From Neocallimastix lanati (nom. inval.) (Eukaryota > Neocallimastigomycota > Neocallimastigomycetes > Neocallimastigales > Neocallimastigaceae): a stretch of DNA of 64,000 bases. Below, piece after piece: positions 3,984-14,309 of the stretch. The stretch's first letter is position 1. Every line of letters starts with the position of its first letter. Below the pieces are notes generated by a model. It saw only the letters and a list, made by a program, of their open reading frames with translations, made no database searches and had not been told where the DNA came from. The position numbers and the translations under genes were made by a program. The stretch covers positions 327,001-391,000 of the forward strand of contig JACVTC010000012.1 in NCBI GenBank assembly GCA_016946835.1, written 5' to 3'.

Positions 3984-5864
3984 TCATCTTATTTGTCTTT
4001 GATTTAAATTTTGAGGTTTTTTAAAGTATAAAAGGTTTTTGTGGTCCGTGACAACCTGAACAGGAAACTTTGAACCTTCCAAGTGGTGTCTCCAGACTTC
4101 AAAAGCTGTAATGACACCTAGGAGTTCTTTATCGTATATTGTATAATTTTTTTCCGTCGTAGTTAAAGACCTTGAGTAAAAAGCGACTGGGTGAAAAAGC
4201 TTATCCTTATCGCAAACTTGGGACAAGACACAACCGAAGGCAAAATCCCTTGCGTCAGTTTCCACCACAAACTCTTTTTCGTGATCAGGGAATATCACTA
4301 GTTCGTTGTTTTTAAAAGATTCTTTTAATTGATTGAATGAGACCTCAGCTTCTTTGTTCCACAAGAATGTTGTATTCTTCTTAAGAAGAAGTCTCATTGG
4401 TTCCATAATAGAAGCAAAATTTTTTATGAATTTTCTATAAAAATTGCAAAGACCTAAAAAACTTTGAAGATCTTTTAAACTTTTTGGGGTAGGCCATTCA
4501 GATATTGATTTCAGTTTATCATACTCCATAAGTAACCCTTCAGCAGATACAGAAAATCCAAGAAATTTAGTTTTTTGAACATGGAAGTCACACTTCTCGA
4601 TTTTAGCATATAGATTATTCTTGATAAGCTTTTTGAGAGTATGTTTAACTTGCTTAATGTGGTCTTCAAGATTATTAGTATAGATGATAATATCATCTAA
4701 GTAGACTTGTAAAAATTTTCCAATATCCGCTGAGAAAATATCTTGTACAAAGCGTTGGAAAACGGAGGGGGCATTCCGAAGTCCGAAAGGCATCACTAGA
4801 TATTCAAAATGACCAATGGGGGTGCGGAAAGCAGTCAAATATTCGTGACCTTCTTTAATTCGAATTAAATTATATGCTGATCGAAGGTCTAATCGAGTGA
4901 AGATTGTAGCACCTTTAAATGATTCTATTAAGTCATTTATGCGAGGAATTGGATAACTGTTCCGAATAGTTATTGCGTTCAACTTTCTATAATCCACACA
5001 TAATCGTAGAGTTCCGTCATGTTTCTTGACAAATATTATTGGGGCACCAGCTGGCGATTTGGACTTTCGTATGAATCCTTTTGAAAGATTTTCCTTGATG
5101 TATACTTTCAATGCCTCCATTTCAGGATCTGTAAGAGAGTAGATTGGACCAAAAAAGAGTTGGCTTCCAGGAGCTATGTCGATTGACATATCATAAGGCC
5201 GGTGAATTGGAAGTTTATCCGCTTCCTTTTTTTCGAAAGCGATTCTTTCCTCCTTATAATATTTTATTAAAATATTTTCTTTTTCTTCAAGAGTTTGTTC
5301 ACTTTCCATTTCAATCATGGGTGCACATAAGTCTGAGTTAGGGTCATCGTAGACGTCTTCAGGAAGCATTGAATTGTAAGTTACTGACTCTAGAGGGATC
5401 ATTGGGGCTGTAACATTTTGATTATGAAAAAGGAACTTATTTCCTTTCGAGGAAGGACAATGTTCCAAACAGTGTTTTTCTAAAAAGTAGATATGATTGT
5501 TTTCGAAGTTGATATATGGCTTATGTAGATTAAGCCAATCTCTTCCCAAGATTCCAGAAACACCATGAAGTTGTAAGTTAGCGATACAAAACTCAAAGTT
5601 TTCTTCATGATCCATGAACTTGAGTTTTAGAATTTTTGTTGTCTGGGTTATATTCATTTTATTTTTATTAGGTAATTGGATATTTATTGTAGATGGAAGA
5701 CTTGAAAATGGAACTTTATTTGAATTTACATAGTTCTTGCAGATAAAACTTCTTACAGAGCCTGAATCGATCATAAGCTTTATCTTTATGCTTTTAGTTC
5801 CAAAGAATGTTGTAAACGTAGTTATCGTATTTTCATTATTTGGAGTATAGTTTGCCTTTAACAT
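3984..5864 (-). CDS. gypsy A protease, reverse transcriptase and RNase H
   Basis: 626-residue open frame. Retropepsin active site IDSG at residues 32-35. RT: KHDGTLRLCVDYRKLN near 281-296, [10 protein letters not shown] near 325-334, the [16 protein letters not shown] block near 357-372, catalytic YLDD at 388-391, then FLGF near 434-437. RNase H acidic residues: D537 in VETDARD, E580 in YDKELLG and D607 in VVTDHKN; the frame stops soon after, so the last part of RNase H is out of frame. The domain order PR-RT-RH-IN marks it as Ty3/gypsy. The protease is in frame with RT. The B2 copy has gag fused in the same frame upstream, so the separate start here reflects decay of gag in this copy. Confidence 0.93.
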   Translation of the reverse strand: MLKANYTPNNENTITTFTTFFGTKSIKIKLMIDSGSVRSFICKNYVNSNKVPFSSLPSTINIQLPNKNKMNITQTTKILKLKFMDHEENFEFCIANLQLHGVSGILGRDWLNLHKPYINFENNHIYFLEKHCLEHCPSSKGNKFLFHNQNVTAPMIPLESVTYNSMLPEDVYDDPNSDLCAPMIEMESEQTLEEKENILIKYYKEERIAFEKKEADKLPIHRPYDMSIDIAPGSQLFFGPIYSLTDPEMEALKVYIKENLSKGFIRKSKSPAGAPIIFVKKHDGTLRLCVDYRKLNAITIRNSYPIPRINDLIESFKGATIFTRLDLRSAYNLIRIKEGHEYLTAFRTPIGHFEYLVMPFGLRNAPSVFQRFVQDIFSADIGKFLQVYLDDIIIYTNNLEDHIKQVKHTLKKLIKNNLYAKIEKCDFHVQKTKFLGFSVSAEGLLMEYDKLKSISEWPTPKSLKDLQSFLGLCNFYRKFIKNFASIMEPMRLLLKKNTTFLWNKEAEVSFNQLKESFKNNELVIFPDHEKEFVVETDARDFAFGCVLSQVCDKDKLFHPVAFYSRSLTTTEKNYTIYDKELLGVITAFEVWRHHLEGSKFPVQVVTDHKNLLYFKKPQNLNQRQIR

Positions 5865-6573
5865 TTGTTTATTCTTTCCTTTAAGTTTAAAGTGTTTTTT
5901 TTCTTTTTCTTCAATAGGTTCATTTTTAAAATGTCTTCTTTTAAATCCTTTTTTATGGTTGTTTTCAATAGGTAAAATGTTCTTCCTGGTGTTGATAGCG
6001 GTGTGACATTTTTTTATCTATACTAATTATTATATTAGTGGCTTCAAACAAGTTTGAAGGCTTTTTAATCTTATCAAATTCTTCTTTAACTTCTTCCATT
6101 AGTCCTCGTCTAATTAAATCAATCAATACATTATCAGACCATCCAATACGCTTTGCCAGACGCCTAAATTCAATTGTATAGAAGGCGGCTTTTCCCAAAT
6201 TATATTGTTTTAGATTCAAATGTTTGTCTATTAGAACGTATTTTTCTTCCTTCGAGTCTCCAAAATTTTCCAATAATAAACTTTTAAATGTTTAGTAGTT
6301 TAGGTTTTCTTTTGTTCCATCATTTTTCAATGAGAGACCCCCCATTTCTTAGCAGGCCCATAAGTTTTGTTTATAACAAACGTATTTTTAAAGTCATCCG
6401 TAGGAAAAGACTTTGGATGTTCTTTAAAAAATAATTCGCATTAGTCTAATATTTCGTTCATTGACCAATTTTCCATTCCGTTTTCTCGTTCTATTACGCC
6501 ATTAGAAGAAAAATAAGTAGGTATAAATTCTGTCAATGAATTAATAAATTCGAAAGTTTTATCTTGTTCCATT
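5865..6573 (-). pseudogene. gypsy A Gag, broken
   Basis: Reading from ATG near 6573, the frame gives EFINSLTEFIPTYFSSNGV and further segments colinear with the intact Gag of B2 (12272-14254), interrupted by stops and at least two frame changes; 5965-6273 is the longest open piece ([23 protein letters not shown] matches the B2 Gag [17 protein letters not shown] region). The lead from the ATG to the primer-binding site is only about 30 bp. Confidence 0.8.
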
Positions 6574-6602
6574 GCTTTTTAAGAAATATTTAAAATTATT
6601 AG

Positions 6603-6614
6603 AAGAGTTATTAT
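6603..6614 (-). promoter_or_regulatory. gypsy A primer-binding site, self-complementary to transcript 5' end
   Basis: The plus strand reads AAGAGTTATTAT and abuts the TG of the LTR at 6615. In the sense strand this is ATAATAACTCTT, a perfect 12-nt complement to the transcript segment encoded at 6831-6842. No tRNA 3'-end complement (TGG...) is present. This is the geometry of Tf1/sushi self-priming. Confidence 0.7.
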
Positions 6615-6830
6615 TGTAAGAAACTATTAAATAAATTATATTTTAAATAGTTTCTTTTATGATTTAAAAATTTAAAAGATTAAAAAATATTTAAAAAAAA
6701 AGTAATTAAAAAATTAACAGAGTTTATTCAAAAATATATTAAAAAAAATTAAAAAAAAAAAATTAAAAAATTAAAAAATTTTTTATTTAAATTGAATTCT
6801 TAAAATTCTTTATTAATATATTTTTTTAAA

Positions 6831-6876
6831 ATAATAACTCTTGATTTCCTAAAAGGAAATCAATCGTTCTTTTATA
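6831..6876 (-). promoter_or_regulatory. gypsy A promoter: TATA box and self-primer segment
   Basis: TATAAA on the minus strand at 6871-6876; its upstream end lies 34 nt from the segment AAGAGTTATTAT (6842 down to 6831), which is where transcription would be expected to begin. The stretch between can fold as a hairpin (GATTTCC/GGAAATC). Confidence 0.65.
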
Positions 6877-7120
6877 CATTTTGATTTATTTAATAATTTC
6901 TTTATTTTAATAATTATTATTTAATTATTTATTAATTTTTATTACTAATAAGTTATTATTTGTTTTATTTTTAATATATTTTGTTTATTAAAATTTAATC
7001 ATTTGTTATCTATTATCATTTATTTTTTATTTAATTATTAATTGAAATTATTTAATTTGTTCATTATTTATTTTGCTTATATTAAATATATATTGTTAAT
7101 TTATTATTTAATAGACTGTA

Positions 7121-7245
7121 CTAGTCTAATTGGTAATTCATCAGGAAAAGACTAGCAGAAAAACCTGATGAAATGATAATGTGATTTATTGATATTAAAT
7201 AATAAAAAATCAAATTGTCATTGGAAAAAAAAATTATTATTTAAT
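7121..7245. other. gypsy A U3 interleaved inverted repeats (pseudoknot-capable)
   Basis: Arms A 7121-7127 (CTAGTCT) with A' 7149-7155 (AGACTAG), and B 7137-7145 (TTCATCAGG) with B' 7164-7172 (CCTGATGAA), in order A-B-A'-B'. A later long stem pairs 7194-7205 with 7234-7245. All listed pairings are perfect. The same layout with different arm sequences is present in three other LTRs of this window. Confidence 0.7.
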
Positions 7246-7541
7246 TTTTGATATTAATAGTAAATTAATTTTTTATTATACTTAATTTTAATTAATATAA
7301 ATATTTATTTATTTTGGCAAAATTATTTATATTATTGGTTTCTTAAAATGGAAATCTAGAATTTAAATTTATAATAAATAGTTATTTTAGTATATGATAT
7401 TTCATTAAAGTTTATTTAGTACTTAATAATTAAAGTTTATATAAAATTTTATTTAGTATTTAATACTTATCCATAATAAGAAATATTAATAATATTAATA
7501 TTTAACTAATGAATATAGATATTTTATCTAAATTCCTTACA

Positions 7542-9552: not shown

Positions 9553-10408
9553 CTAATGATCATTTAGTTCAGGCTTCCTTTTGGTGTATGGCTCCAGTTG
9601 AAGATTTTCTGGTAGTTCTAACCGGTAGTTCATTCTTTCCCGCACTTCAATGATCTTGAACGGACCTAAATATTGATTTGATAGTTTTTTAGCGGGTTCA
9701 TTGGTAAAATAGTAACGCTTTAGCCAAACAAGATCACCAACTTTGAAGGAAGGGCCTAAAGCTTTTCTAGAATCAGAATATTTTTTGAAGTCTTCTTTTG
9801 CTTTAGTAAGATGAACTCTAAGTGCATCGAAATAAGCGGACCAATCCCTAGTCAAGACCGAAGCGTTATCTTTAAGCAAAATAGGAGGAGCGTCAATATT
9901 ACAAACCGGGTTAAATCCATAGTTTGCGCGAAAAGGGGACATTCCAATTGATTTATGTAGAGAATTATTATATGCCATCTCACATAAGGGAAGGTAAAAG
10001 TTCCATTCGCTCTGAGAAGTAGAACAATAACAACGAAGATATTGCTCAATTACAGAATTAGCCGTTCCACTTGACCATTGGATTGTTGATGGTGGGCAGT
10101 AGTGAGTCTAGGTTTTGTATTCAAGGCGGAGCAGAGTGAAGTCCAGAACTCGGATGAAAACTGGGAGCCATGATCGGAAATAATTATTCTTGGAAAACCG
10201 TGATACCTAAAAATATTAAATAGAAGCATTTTGGAGGTTAGATCGGCAGTTGGAACATCAGAGCAAGGCACTAAGTGAATCATCTTGGTAAGATGATCGG
10301 CAACAACCATGATGCACGTACAATTTTGTGAACTTGGGAGAGAAACTATAAAATCAACACCGATGATTTCCCACGGCTTGTTGGGAACTGGAAGTGGATG
10401 AATCTTAC
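9553..10408 (-). pseudogene. gypsy B1 integrase, C-terminal two thirds
   Basis: Two open pieces. 10050-10310 has the core with SDHGSQFSSEFW and NGQVER, then a one-base frame change; 9553-9978 continues with AYNNSLH, VWLKRYYFTNEPAKK and the end of the C-terminal domain. About ten residues of the A protein are missing before LEPYTKRK. The upstream part of pol is cut off at about 10408, where an origin-like stem-loop begins. The 100 bp at 10305-10408 correspond to the same integrase segment as 11515-11620 on the far side of the Rep insert, at roughly 78% identity, so B1 and B2 are different elements. Confidence 0.85.
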
Positions 10409-10409
10409 C

Positions 10410-10452
10410 ATAACTTTTTTTATTTATAACATTAACTAATAAAAAAAGTTAT
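10410..10452 (+). other. CRESS-type origin stem-loop (candidate)
   Basis: Perfect 15-bp stem (10410-10424 with 10438-10452) and a 13-nt loop, TATAACATTAACT. The loop contains TAACATTAA, similar to the nonanucleotide TAATATTAC nicked by Rep in geminivirus-like replicons (7 of 9). It lies 22 bp upstream of the Rep reading frame, as in CRESS-DNA genomes, and its base is within a few bases of the junction with gypsy B1. Confidence 0.7.
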
Positions 10453-10474
10453 CTCATTTTTTTAACCCTTTATA

Positions 10475-11514
10475 ATGTTTATTATTAATAATAAAAAGGA
10501 ATTTTTAGTTACTTATGCATCTGATTTTAATGGATGTTTAACTATTGATAAAATTGAAAATTTTTTTTAAATTTAATATGCAAAATGTTTTCGAATACAT
10601 TATTAGTAAAGAGAAAGGTCATGAAGGAGATAAACATGACCATTTTCATCTTTATTTAAAATATATCGGAAAAAATAAAAAAGGCTTTAGTGCTAAAGGT
10701 AACAACGCTGAAACTATTTTTGATATTCCTATTTATAGTATTAAGGATAAAGAAGTCGTTCGTCTTCCTATAAATCTCAAGGGGGATTTGTGTACTCATG
10801 CACATCTCAATATCAAATTCAAAGGGGATAAGGATGACAATAACTGTAAAAATTCTTACTGTATGGTTGACTACGTTACAAAGCAAAGAAAAAATCTACC
10901 TATTGAAGAATGGATAATTGAAAGCAATTTTGACTGGGTTGAATATTTAGAAACTTTAAGTGCGAAATACAACAAGGAAAAAGAAAAATCTATTCGTGTT
11001 AAACTAACTGAAAAAGAAATGGAGTTTTGCGAATGGTTAAGAAATATCATAAACGATCATCCTGAGAAAACAAAAAACGAAATCAAATCTGAAATCTTCC
11101 AAAATAAAGATTATAGTTTTATTTTTATGTCCAAAAACTATAATTATGATGGTCTTCTTAGTCGCTACTTTAAGGAAAAACCTGAAGTCAAACCACCACC
11201 TTAATGGGGTATCTATTATATTCCGATTGAATTAAAAGAGGCTTTAGATTACTTGAATGACTTTATTCAAAAATGGTTTGAAAAGAAAATTCCAAGGGGG
11301 TGTAGGCCTAAACCAATATTTCTTTCAGGGGATGGTAATTGTGGTAAAACGTCTTTAGCCTGTATGGGAACCTTCTCGTATTGGTGTACCTCCTGGAATT
11401 TTAATAATTATCGTAATTTTTTCGATGATTATGATGGCAATGAAGATGCCAAAAATAATTCATCTGATAATGCTTGGTCGTATTTAAAACCTTGGATCGG
11501 TGGTCAGGATGTGG
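10475..11514 (+). pseudogene. rep: CRESS-DNA virus-like replication initiator (Rep), broken and 3'-truncated
   Basis: Rep of circular single-strand DNA replicons nicks the origin (HUH endonuclease) and unwinds DNA (SF3 helicase). Seen: ATG at 10475; motif I FLVTYA near 10502-10519; motif II HFHLYL starting 10641; motif III YVTK at 10872-10883; then Walker A GDGNCGKTS at 11328-11354 and a Walker-B-like FFDDYD near 11417-11434, followed by KPWIGGQD, which parallels the conserved K-x-x-IG-x-Q stretch. Breaks: an eight-T run at 10561-10568 puts the two halves of the nuclease domain in different frames, a TAA interrupts at 11202-11204 (same frame continues), and the gene is cut near 11514 before the last helicase motif, where antisense gypsy sequence starts. 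Nearest family appears geminivirus/genomovirus-like; the host of the source replicon is unknown. No capsid gene is seen. Confidence 0.85.
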
Positions 11515-12271
11515 TATCTATATACATGTGCAATCTTGAACTAGGTAACGAAACTAAAAAATCAACCCCAATAATTTCCCATGGTTTATTGGGAACAGGC
11601 AACGGTTGAATTTTTCCCTAGGGTTTATGTCTACGAATTTTACACCTAGCACAAGTTGAACAAGAAAGTACATAATTATGAATATCTTTCTTCATATTAG
11701 GCCACCAGTAGTATCTCTTGATTTTTTCAAGAGTTTTGTCAATACCTTGGTGTCCGTTGGTGGGTGAGTAATGAAAAGATTTCAAAATTCTTGCTCTTAA
11801 AGTGGATGGGACGATGATTCTGTTTTGGAAATGTAAGACCCCTTCATTTAAAGAAAATAAAGAACTTTTAACTGTGTTTGACTTAGTTTTAATCTTTTCT
11901 AAAATAGATTTGCAATATGTGTCATCCGTTTGGGCATCAATCAAACTACTAATATTATCAGTGTCTGCACAACATAAGGCATTATCATCCAATAAAGGAC
12001 GGTCTTTGTTGTGGAGGGAAACCACGGAATTATAATCCGGACGTCTAGACAACGAATCTGGTTTACCACACCTTGATCCAGGTCTGAACGAAATCCTAAA
12101 GTCAAACTTAGAAAGAAAGAGGCTCCATCTTATCTGGCGTTGTTTAAATGTTGAGGCTTTTTAAAATATAATAAATTCCTGTGATCGGTAATGATTTGAA
12201 CAGGAAACTTAGCCCCTTCAAGGTGGTGACGCCATGTTTCAAAAGTGGTGATAATAGCGAGTAGTTCCTTG
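11515..12271 (-). pseudogene. gypsy B2 RNase H end to integrase start
   Basis: Colinear with gypsy A pol. Reading minus from 12271: RNase H end ([13 protein letters not shown], then LSKFDFRISFRPG), SRRPDYNS, spacer, and the integrase zinc domain at 11618-12052 (GHQGIDKTLEKIKRYYWWPN and CSTCARC). A stop follows near 11618; the start of the core, IIGVDF-like, runs to about 11515, where the Rep insert begins. Separated from the upstream ORF by a deletion of about 520 bp relative to A. Confidence 0.8.
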
Positions 12272-14254
12272 TCATATATTGTATAATTTAATATGTTCAG
12301 TAAGGTTTTTCGAATATATTATAATGTCATCTAAGTAGACAAAGAGAAACAAGCCAATATCATCAGAAAAAATGTCTTGGATAAAGCGTTGAAAAACCGA
12401 AGGTGCATTACGTAAACCAAAAGGCATTACACGGTATTCAAAATGACCAAAAGGAGTACGAAAAGCAGTAAGGTATTCATGGCCTTTCTTGACACGAACT
12501 AAGTTATAGGCAGATCTTAAGTCAAGCCGAGAGAAAATAATAGCACCTTTAAATGATTCTATCAAATCAGATATCCTAGAAATTGGATAACTGTTTCTAA
12601 TGGTGATAGAATTGAGCTTTCTATAGTCAACATAAAGTCTAAGAGAACCGTCACGTTTTCTAACAAATAGCACCGGGGCACCAGCAGGAGATTTTGATTT
12701 TCTAATGAATCCTTTAGCAAGGTTTTCCTTAATGTATTCACGAAGTGCCTTCTTTTCTTCAACAGTCAACGAATAAATTGGTCCAAAATAAAGTTGAGCA
12801 CCGGGAACTAAATCAATGGATATATCATAAACACGGTGTGGAGGGAGTTTATCAGCTTCTTTCTTTTCAAATACAATACAAAGGTCATAATAAAATTTTT
12901 TAATTATTTTTTTATTTCTTTTGGTATTCTTGATTTCACTATTGTGAACTAAAGCAGCACAAATGTTCATATCGCTAAGTTCGTCTTCAGGTATGGAATC
13001 TGGAATTATTGAGTCAAGAGGAATTTCTTCCTTCTGTTCATTATTGGGTAAGAGAGAAGCAGTAATATTCGGTGAACGGAAAACAAACCTATTACCCTTA
13101 GCAGAAGGGCAATGGTTTTTACAGTAGCTTTCCAAGAAGTAAATTTTATTATTTTTGTAATCAATGTAAGGTGAATGAAGGCTTAACCAATCTCTTCCAA
13201 GGATTGCAGATACGTCTTGAAGTTGTAAATTGGATATAAAGAATTCAAATGTTTCCATATGGTCCATGAAAGTAAGCTTAAGACGTTTTGTAACTTGTTT
13301 TATAGCCATATTCTTTTCATTAGGAAGTTTTACATTGATCGTATTTGAGAGGTTTGAATAAGGAATTTTGTTTGCTGTTACGAAGCTTTTGCAGAGATAA
13401 CTTCTAGCAGAGCCCGAGTCAATAAGGATTCTGGTTTTAATCTTTTTGTTATTAACGGTTAACAAGAAAGTTGTAGTCATTTTATTATTATGACTTGGGG
13501 TGTAATTTGCTGATAAAATACTTCCATTGTCTCGTCCCTTATGGTGCTTATTGCGTTTAAATTTGTTTTCGGTCATGTTAGTTTCGTTTCTTTTTCGTTT
13601 GAAAGATTTACTACTCTTTGGCTTGTAGTCATTGGTCTTTACTTTTTGCTTAAGTAAACATTTTCTATCAATATTGATAATGGAATTTGTTTCCTCAAAT
13701 AAACTTTTAGGTTTGTCTAATTTATTGAACTTTGTTTTAACATCCTCAAGAAGACCTCTTTTGATTAGGTCAATGAATACATCGTCCGGCCATCCAATAC
13801 GTCCAGCTAACCTTCGAAATTCAATAGTATATAGTGCGGCTCTTCCTAAATGAAGTTGTTTTAAGTTTAGAAGTTGTTCAATAAGAACATCCTTCTGTTC
13901 TTTAGTATCCCCAAAATTGCTTATCAAAATATCTTTAAAGGTGTCATAGCTTAACGAATTTAAAGTCCTATCAGCCTTCAATGAAAGTCCCCATTTCTTT
14001 GGAGGTCCATGCAACATGCTGATAACATAAGAAATTTTTAAGTCGTCCGTGGAAAAAGAGTTGGGATGTTTTTTAAAAAACAATTCACTCTGTTCCAGGA
14101 GCTCATTAACGTTAAGTTTGTTGTTATCAGCTAAGTCCTTGGATAACACTCCGTTGGCGGAAAAGAAGGTAGGAATAAATTCTGTTAAAGCTGTTATAAG
14201 CTTTGAGTATTCAACTTCACTTGGAATTTGGGCGTTATTACTATTGGATTCCAT
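12272..14254 (-). CDS. gypsy B2 Gag-protease-reverse transcriptase (RT truncated)
   Basis: 660-residue open frame from ATG at 14254. Gag spans about residues 1-240 ([16 protein letters not shown] near 140-155) and ends in a strongly basic stretch ([18 protein letters not shown]) with no CCHC knuckle. Protease IDSGSARS near 278-285. [34 protein letters not shown] and YLDD at 640-643. Shortly after YLDD the frame jumps at about 12290 into the end of RNase H: compared with gypsy A, about 520 bp (RT thumb, connection, start of RNase H) are gone, and the breakpoint is near a short AAATTATACA similarity. Gag and Pol are one ORF here, so no frameshift signal is needed between them. The element cannot make its own full RT. 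Confidence 0.92.
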
Positions 14255-14309
14255 TTTTACCTAAATTATAAATTATATTAACTATGAAATATATATACAT
14301 GTTTATTAT

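Follow-up and report, generated by a model that had tools for sequence, protein, structure and literature searches.

The window analysed here is a stretch of 64,000 nucleotides from Neocallimastix lanati, an anaerobic gut fungus according to its lineage record (contig JACVTC010000012.1, positions 327,001 to 391,000 of the forward strand). A perfect hairpin followed by a broken Rep gene lies in it between two Ty3/gypsy segments, with the following features (window coordinates):

9553..10413, minus strand: left flank, Ty3/gypsy subfamily A integrase (from copy comparison)
10329..10412, strand not given: left copy of an integrase stretch present on both sides
10410..11521, plus strand: whole endogenous replicon fragment, origin and truncated Rep (first 4 bases common with the host element)
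10410..10424, plus strand: origin stem, 5′ arm
10425..10437, plus strand: origin loop, 13 nt, with the nonanucleotide-like motif TAACATTAAC
10438..10452, plus strand: origin stem, 3′ arm
10475..10567, plus strand: Rep piece 1, start and HUH motif I, stopping at the frame break
10569..11201, plus strand: Rep piece 2, HUH motif II, GRS-like stretch and motif III (YVTK), closed by a TAA
11205..11521, plus strand: Rep piece 3, SF3 helicase start with Walker A (11328-11354) and Walker B-like FFDDYD
11522..14260, minus strand: right flank, Ty3/gypsy subfamily B, gag-pol up to integrase (from copy comparison)
11537..11620, strand not given: right copy of the integrase stretch

The original prediction placed a perfect 15-bp stem-loop 22 bp upstream of Rep, and this is what we find: the arms pair over 15 bp with no mismatch around a 13-nt loop, and the Rep ATG (10475-10477) stands 22 nt 3′ of the stem. 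Six perfect stems of at least 15 bp (loop 4-25) are present in the window, four of them not simple sequence, and of these four this hairpin alone carries ATTAAC in its loop. Three open reading frames hold the Rep in gene order (motif I, 10466-10570; motifs II/III, 10542-11204; Walker A, 11205-11609) and, as is characteristic of CRESS-DNA Reps, HUH motifs I, II and III follow one another in order with SF3 Walker A and B downstream of them. The gene is dead, as had been proposed: the frame breaks in a T8 run (10561-10568), an in-frame TAA (11202-11204) interrupts it, and its 3′ end is lost at the right junction (11521), before helicase motif C, which is missing from this copy together with the C-terminal helicase end.

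Comparison with other gypsy copies sets both limits of the insert. On the left, a subfamily A copy (L067) aligns up to 10413, with 4 bases at the junction (10413/10414) common to the stem and the host element. On the right, a subfamily B copy (L068) aligns from 11522, the position at which all 39 non-self long subfamily B matches among the best 40 of 222 begin, and the right end first given as 11514 is corrected to about 11521. The left flank has 5 other copies at 95-97% among the best 40 and the right flank 39 at 95-98% among the best 40 of 222, and both subfamilies have copies that continue without the insert. Because the two flanks differ, copies of the two subfamilies (one A, one B) align without a gap at the insert site (74% identical over 760 bp), and 84 nt or more of integrase sequence recur on both sides (77% identical), the insert is a joint of two different gypsy elements, with no simple target duplication. 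Elsewhere in the window, two minus-strand open frames appear by eye to be retrotransposon gag-like (742-1746) and pol-like with protease, RT and RNase H (3984-5864).

Rep identity and relatives

We searched all window ORFs of 25 codons or more, 1117 in number, with a profile built from other Reps (P0002-P0007) that contained no window sequence. Exactly three scored E < 0.01 and these are the three Rep pieces (3.6e-13, 1.9e-10 and 0.0027), which fall in gene order on consecutive ranges of the profile. The claimed order of HUH motifs and Walker A was thus recovered by an independent Rep profile. Neither Pfam nor PHROGs nor PDB returned a Rep family for the window pieces searched alone, and the matches obtained were weak and unrelated, so that the family search proposed for the reading segments gave nothing significant piece by piece but matched all three once a profile of relatives was used. 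Rep piece 2 had no match in phage records or among 72,556 plasmid records, and a protein database search with it returned itself alone; the lack of a plasmid match and the SF3 part of the gene speak against a bacterial rolling-circle plasmid Rep lacking SF3. No relatives of the lineage were found in IMG/VR scans and no circular exogenous genome of it was seen.

Family affinity comes from relatives, some of them on other contigs of the same N. lanati genome (C35, C468 and similar labels). Six of the eight relatives scanned (P0002-P0007) passed the Pfam threshold for Gemini_AL1 (PF00799), which was not reached by the window pieces, C468, P0008 or P0009, and against the geminivirus Rep central domain P0002 scored 20.8 bits, below the cut-off of 24. 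The Rep alignment profile matches PDB entries 7vg8 (2.5e-6) and 1l2m (6.1e-5), Rep endonuclease domains that are presumably of geminivirus origin, and the matches include the HPNI stretch, which we take to be part of the GRS. The C468 copy is a 493-codon open frame with a near end-to-end Rep profile match (1e-58 as a single-sequence search); alone it passes no Rep family threshold, and in Pfam it reaches 28.2 bits (cut-off 27.6) for DUF5906, by our assumption an SF3-like family. Since neither the window pieces nor C468 match a family alone, it is through profiles that they are tied to Rep families. Motif C and the helicase end are present by eye in C468 and in the metagenome Reps P0004-P0007, which are 463-482 aa long.

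In four genome searches (queries: window piece 2, two C468 Rep pieces and the C762 Rep), the best candidates scored, once grouped by hand, fall into about 19 separate Rep places on 17 contigs. Most copies are partial or broken, and those compared with window piece 2 are 32-55% identical to it; related Rep proteins occur in other genera. Single-piece trees, excluding the remaining places as too short or broken, support two clades, with most inner branches open or unstarred (2 of 9 starred in the helicase tree of 12 rows, 3 of 10 in the HUH tree of 13 rows). One holds the window, C145, C146, C468 and metagenome P0009; the other holds C762, Anaeromyces P0003, C35, C129, C5 and metagenome P0004-P0007. 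In P0009, a HUH domain of the window clade is joined to a C-terminus that seems unrelated, in place of the SF3 helicase. Two diverged Rep copies stand in tandem, ~1 kb apart, on C145 (L030), and C65 has Rep pieces on opposite strands (L032), which suggests either that insertion recurred at the same place or that local duplication took place.

Hairpins, junctions and a capsid-like gene

A hairpin with an ATTAAC loop lies upstream of Rep in six of seven regions (the window and five of six other loci), where it has 10-16 perfect pairs and ends 16-53 nt 5′ of Rep. Dinucleotide shuffles equalled each of these hairpins 0-2 times in 2000, and the six represent five independent stem sequences (C35 and C434 carry near-identical copies). 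The window and C5 (L028) begin their loops with the same 12 nt, TATAACATTAAC, on stems that are unlike, and a loop kept while stems differ is the pattern expected from a nicking origin; a hairpin origin with a conserved loop near Rep is also a feature of CRESS-DNA replicons. In the stretches scanned there are four TAACATTAAC sites: two are the window and C5 loops, the third is ~40 bp past the 3′ end of the C434 Rep piece and the fourth, in the C762 region, is unrelated.

The one region with no such hairpin upstream is C468, where the junction falls at the loop motif itself. It reads AACATTA|ACAT where host copies read AACATTATAAC (6 of 6 compared), and a host repeat flanks Rep on both sides (~920 bp, 98.8% identical; L024:3949-4868 and 6531-7453). 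We considered these repeats as LTRs of a Rep-carrying element and rejected this: the repeat belongs to a dispersed family found in at least 40 places (best 40 of 2033 candidates), other copies continue without Rep, and it is therefore read as duplicated host DNA. By eye, the core of this family starts with TGTAAGAAA and ends with TTTCTTACA. Given the host reading of AACATTATAAC, the doubled repeat and the rarity of AACATTA (0.0003 per base; 110 in 345,822 on both strands of these loci), the C468 sequence suggests joining at the predicted nick, at this locus only. The junctions at C762 and C434 are elsewhere upstream, away from the predicted nick. The window insert had been thought joined at its own nick site, and this part of the original prediction did not hold: its left junction is at the stem base, and both arms and the loop are present.

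On C35, a gene with a basic start diverges from Rep across the origin and has one in-frame stop; a second copy ~9 kb away is open over 173 codons and is followed by a 125-codon ORF and another ORF still open where the stretch read stops. The protein has 21 database matches, itself and 20 relatives: two in Anaeromyces robustus, one in Piromyces and 17 metagenome proteins at 36-66% identity, with longest contigs of 0.8-5.1 kb. One Anaeromyces relative and the Anaeromyces Rep are on contigs that are both 117,802 bp long. Pfam and PDB gave no match, geminivirus coat protein (Pfam) included, and nothing was found in GTDB contigs with one capsid relative as query. From its position, basic N-terminus and kin, we call the gene capsid-like. 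The two small ORFs that follow it (L069:1377-2300) have no Pfam match, and the first has one weak relative in the genome (C2:1942565). The capsid-like relative P0023 (longest contig 4.4 kb) comes from a bin labelled as a Methanobrevibacter genome, perhaps through misbinning from the same gut community.

Origin of the insert

We observe a Rep with HUH and SF3 motifs, an adjoining hairpin whose loop is kept, a divergent gene beside a relative and repeated insertion into chromosomes. Because of the Rep profile, the hairpins, the Gemini_AL1 relatives and the divergent capsid-like gene, a CRESS-type ssDNA virus fossil is the most likely source, and the window insert is very probably a dead fragment of a geminivirus-type CRESS ssDNA virus of anaerobic gut fungi, integrated in N. 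lanati. The idea of an endogenous CRESS-type fragment with origin and Rep is upheld by the hairpin statistics, the Rep profile and Gemini_AL1 in relatives, and that of a fungal group exposed to a rolling-circle DNA virus is strengthened by the C35 gene and by relatives in Anaeromyces, Piromyces and metagenomes. About 19 pieces, one of them beside a capsid-like gene, point to a little-known virus group infecting gut fungi.

In the live replicon, Rep would nick the hairpin loop just 5′ of its own gene at TAACATTA|AC, by analogy with the nick at TAATATT|AC. It would then drive rolling-circle replication and unwind the DNA with its own SF3 helicase. A capsid gene on the far side of the origin, as seen beside the C35 relative, may be supposed for the window lineage, and with it encapsidation. 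Integration of fragments into chromosomes would have happened many times, with end joining the probable route in most cases (4 bases are common at the left junction of the window insert), and at least one integration (C468) appears to fall at the predicted nick. After integration, the window copy would have decayed.

A wider reading is possible, and we offer it tentatively: anaerobic gut fungi may be hosts to a family-level ssDNA virus lineage that still circulates, in which the origin loop is of the TAACATTAAC type, Rep is long, several genes are virion-sense and Rep itself can join viral DNA to loop-like chromosomal sites. The C468 junction, where host AACATTA meets viral AC at the predicted nick and the insert stands between two copies of 920 bp of host DNA, recalls the Rep-mediated integration of AAV.

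It is unlikely that the insert derives instead from a fungal rolling-circle plasmid that lacked a capsid gene. In favour of a plasmid, the genome has two capsid matches only, both at C35; the capsid profile, run over 19 stretches, matched the C35 stretches only, and no linked capsid gene was seen in the stretches read for the window clade (window, C145, C146, C468). Against this, the other clade, beside whose Rep alone the capsid-like gene is seen, carries it divergent from Rep across the same origin type, and relatives of that gene occur in two more genera and on small metagenome contigs.

Still less probable is a Rep gene turned mobile element, as in the geminivirus-like transposon of Tuber, or captured and spread by Ty3/gypsy. 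The ~19 Rep places would fit such a history, as would C762 (L025:4807-6288), where the Rep open frame runs in frame into a Ty3/gypsy integrase, and two gene models that by eye end integrase-like, P0002 (Neocallimastix sp. ‘constans’) and P0003 (Anaeromyces robustus); from these, a Rep-gypsy integrase chimera may be common to two genera. Yet the other copies are merely 32-55% identical to the window piece, and the C762 Rep, with a best match of 47% elsewhere in the genome, has no close copy; the 98% pair of C35 and C434 Reps makes limited duplication possible. Gypsy pol lies within 100 nt of the Rep edge at 6 of 18 loci (five by computed distance and C762, whose pol match overlaps the Rep end, by eye) versus ~4.8 expected, a rough figure from a background of 0.144 measured in this one window. 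Preferential siting of Reps in Ty3/gypsy was accordingly dropped as near chance. Embedding in retrotransposons, as first described, is true at the window but near chance over the 18 loci, and as far as this rough test goes the density of retrotransposons explains it. An assembly or binning artefact, which the exact meeting of two gypsy subfamilies at the insert might bring to mind, is scarcely credible given that the insert sits within a 1.97-Mb contig and has diverged, decayed relatives at many other places and related proteins in other genera.

Read as virus fossils, the origin, Rep and capsid-like sequences provide gut fungi with a history of DNA viruses, and kin of the capsid-like protein occur in two more genera. 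They can also serve as probes for living relatives in rumen samples, and the set of junctions is natural material on Rep nicking in chromosomal integration.

Comparison with known systems

A close likeness is to Geminiviridae, in HUH motif order, the GRS-like HPNI stretch, the Rep-adjacent hairpin and the divergent capsid-like gene. The geminivirus nonanucleotide is TAATATTAC, whereas the gut-fungal loops are of the TAACATTAAC type or ATTAAC forms; metagenome Reps of 463-482 aa, a capsid-like protein without a family match and an anaerobic-fungus host are further differences. Genomoviridae (SsHADV-1, FgGMTV1) are likewise ssDNA mycoviruses, with ambisense Rep and CP, and their genomes measure 1.3-2.4 kb in the available part of a review (PMC10224137), a point of difference; the capsid-like protein, compared through Pfam and PDB, had no match there. 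Fungal endogenous Reps have been placed near Genomoviridae and Geminiviridae (PMC6186406, in the text available).

For gut-fungal genera, the accessible text of the same review gives +ssRNA and dsRNA viruses and one ssDNA entry, Pecoramyces, citing Jo et al. 2022 (PMC10224137). There, a ‘gemycircularvirus in Pecoramyces ruminatium’ is named in a list of transcriptome viruses (PMC9501391). It is the sole printed ssDNA virus signal that we found for an anaerobic gut fungus; the available sections of that paper describe no endogenous copies, origin or capsid (PMC9501391). Our literature search, whose coverage of subscription journals and bioRxiv was thin, returned no description of such elements in gut fungi.

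Geminivirus-like Rep fossils of fungi are already known, and the gut-fungal lineage was not found described among them. In the portions available, Liu et al. 2011 (PMC3198968) report geminivirus-like Rep genes and remnants in the genomes of ascomycetes and one basidiomycete, some within host genes or transposons, and a geminivirus-like transposon in Tuber; none of the words nonanucleotide, stem-loop and nick occurs in those portions. Both sets are geminivirus-like endogenous Reps, and the difference is that the Neocallimastigomycota case adds an origin and a capsid-like gene.
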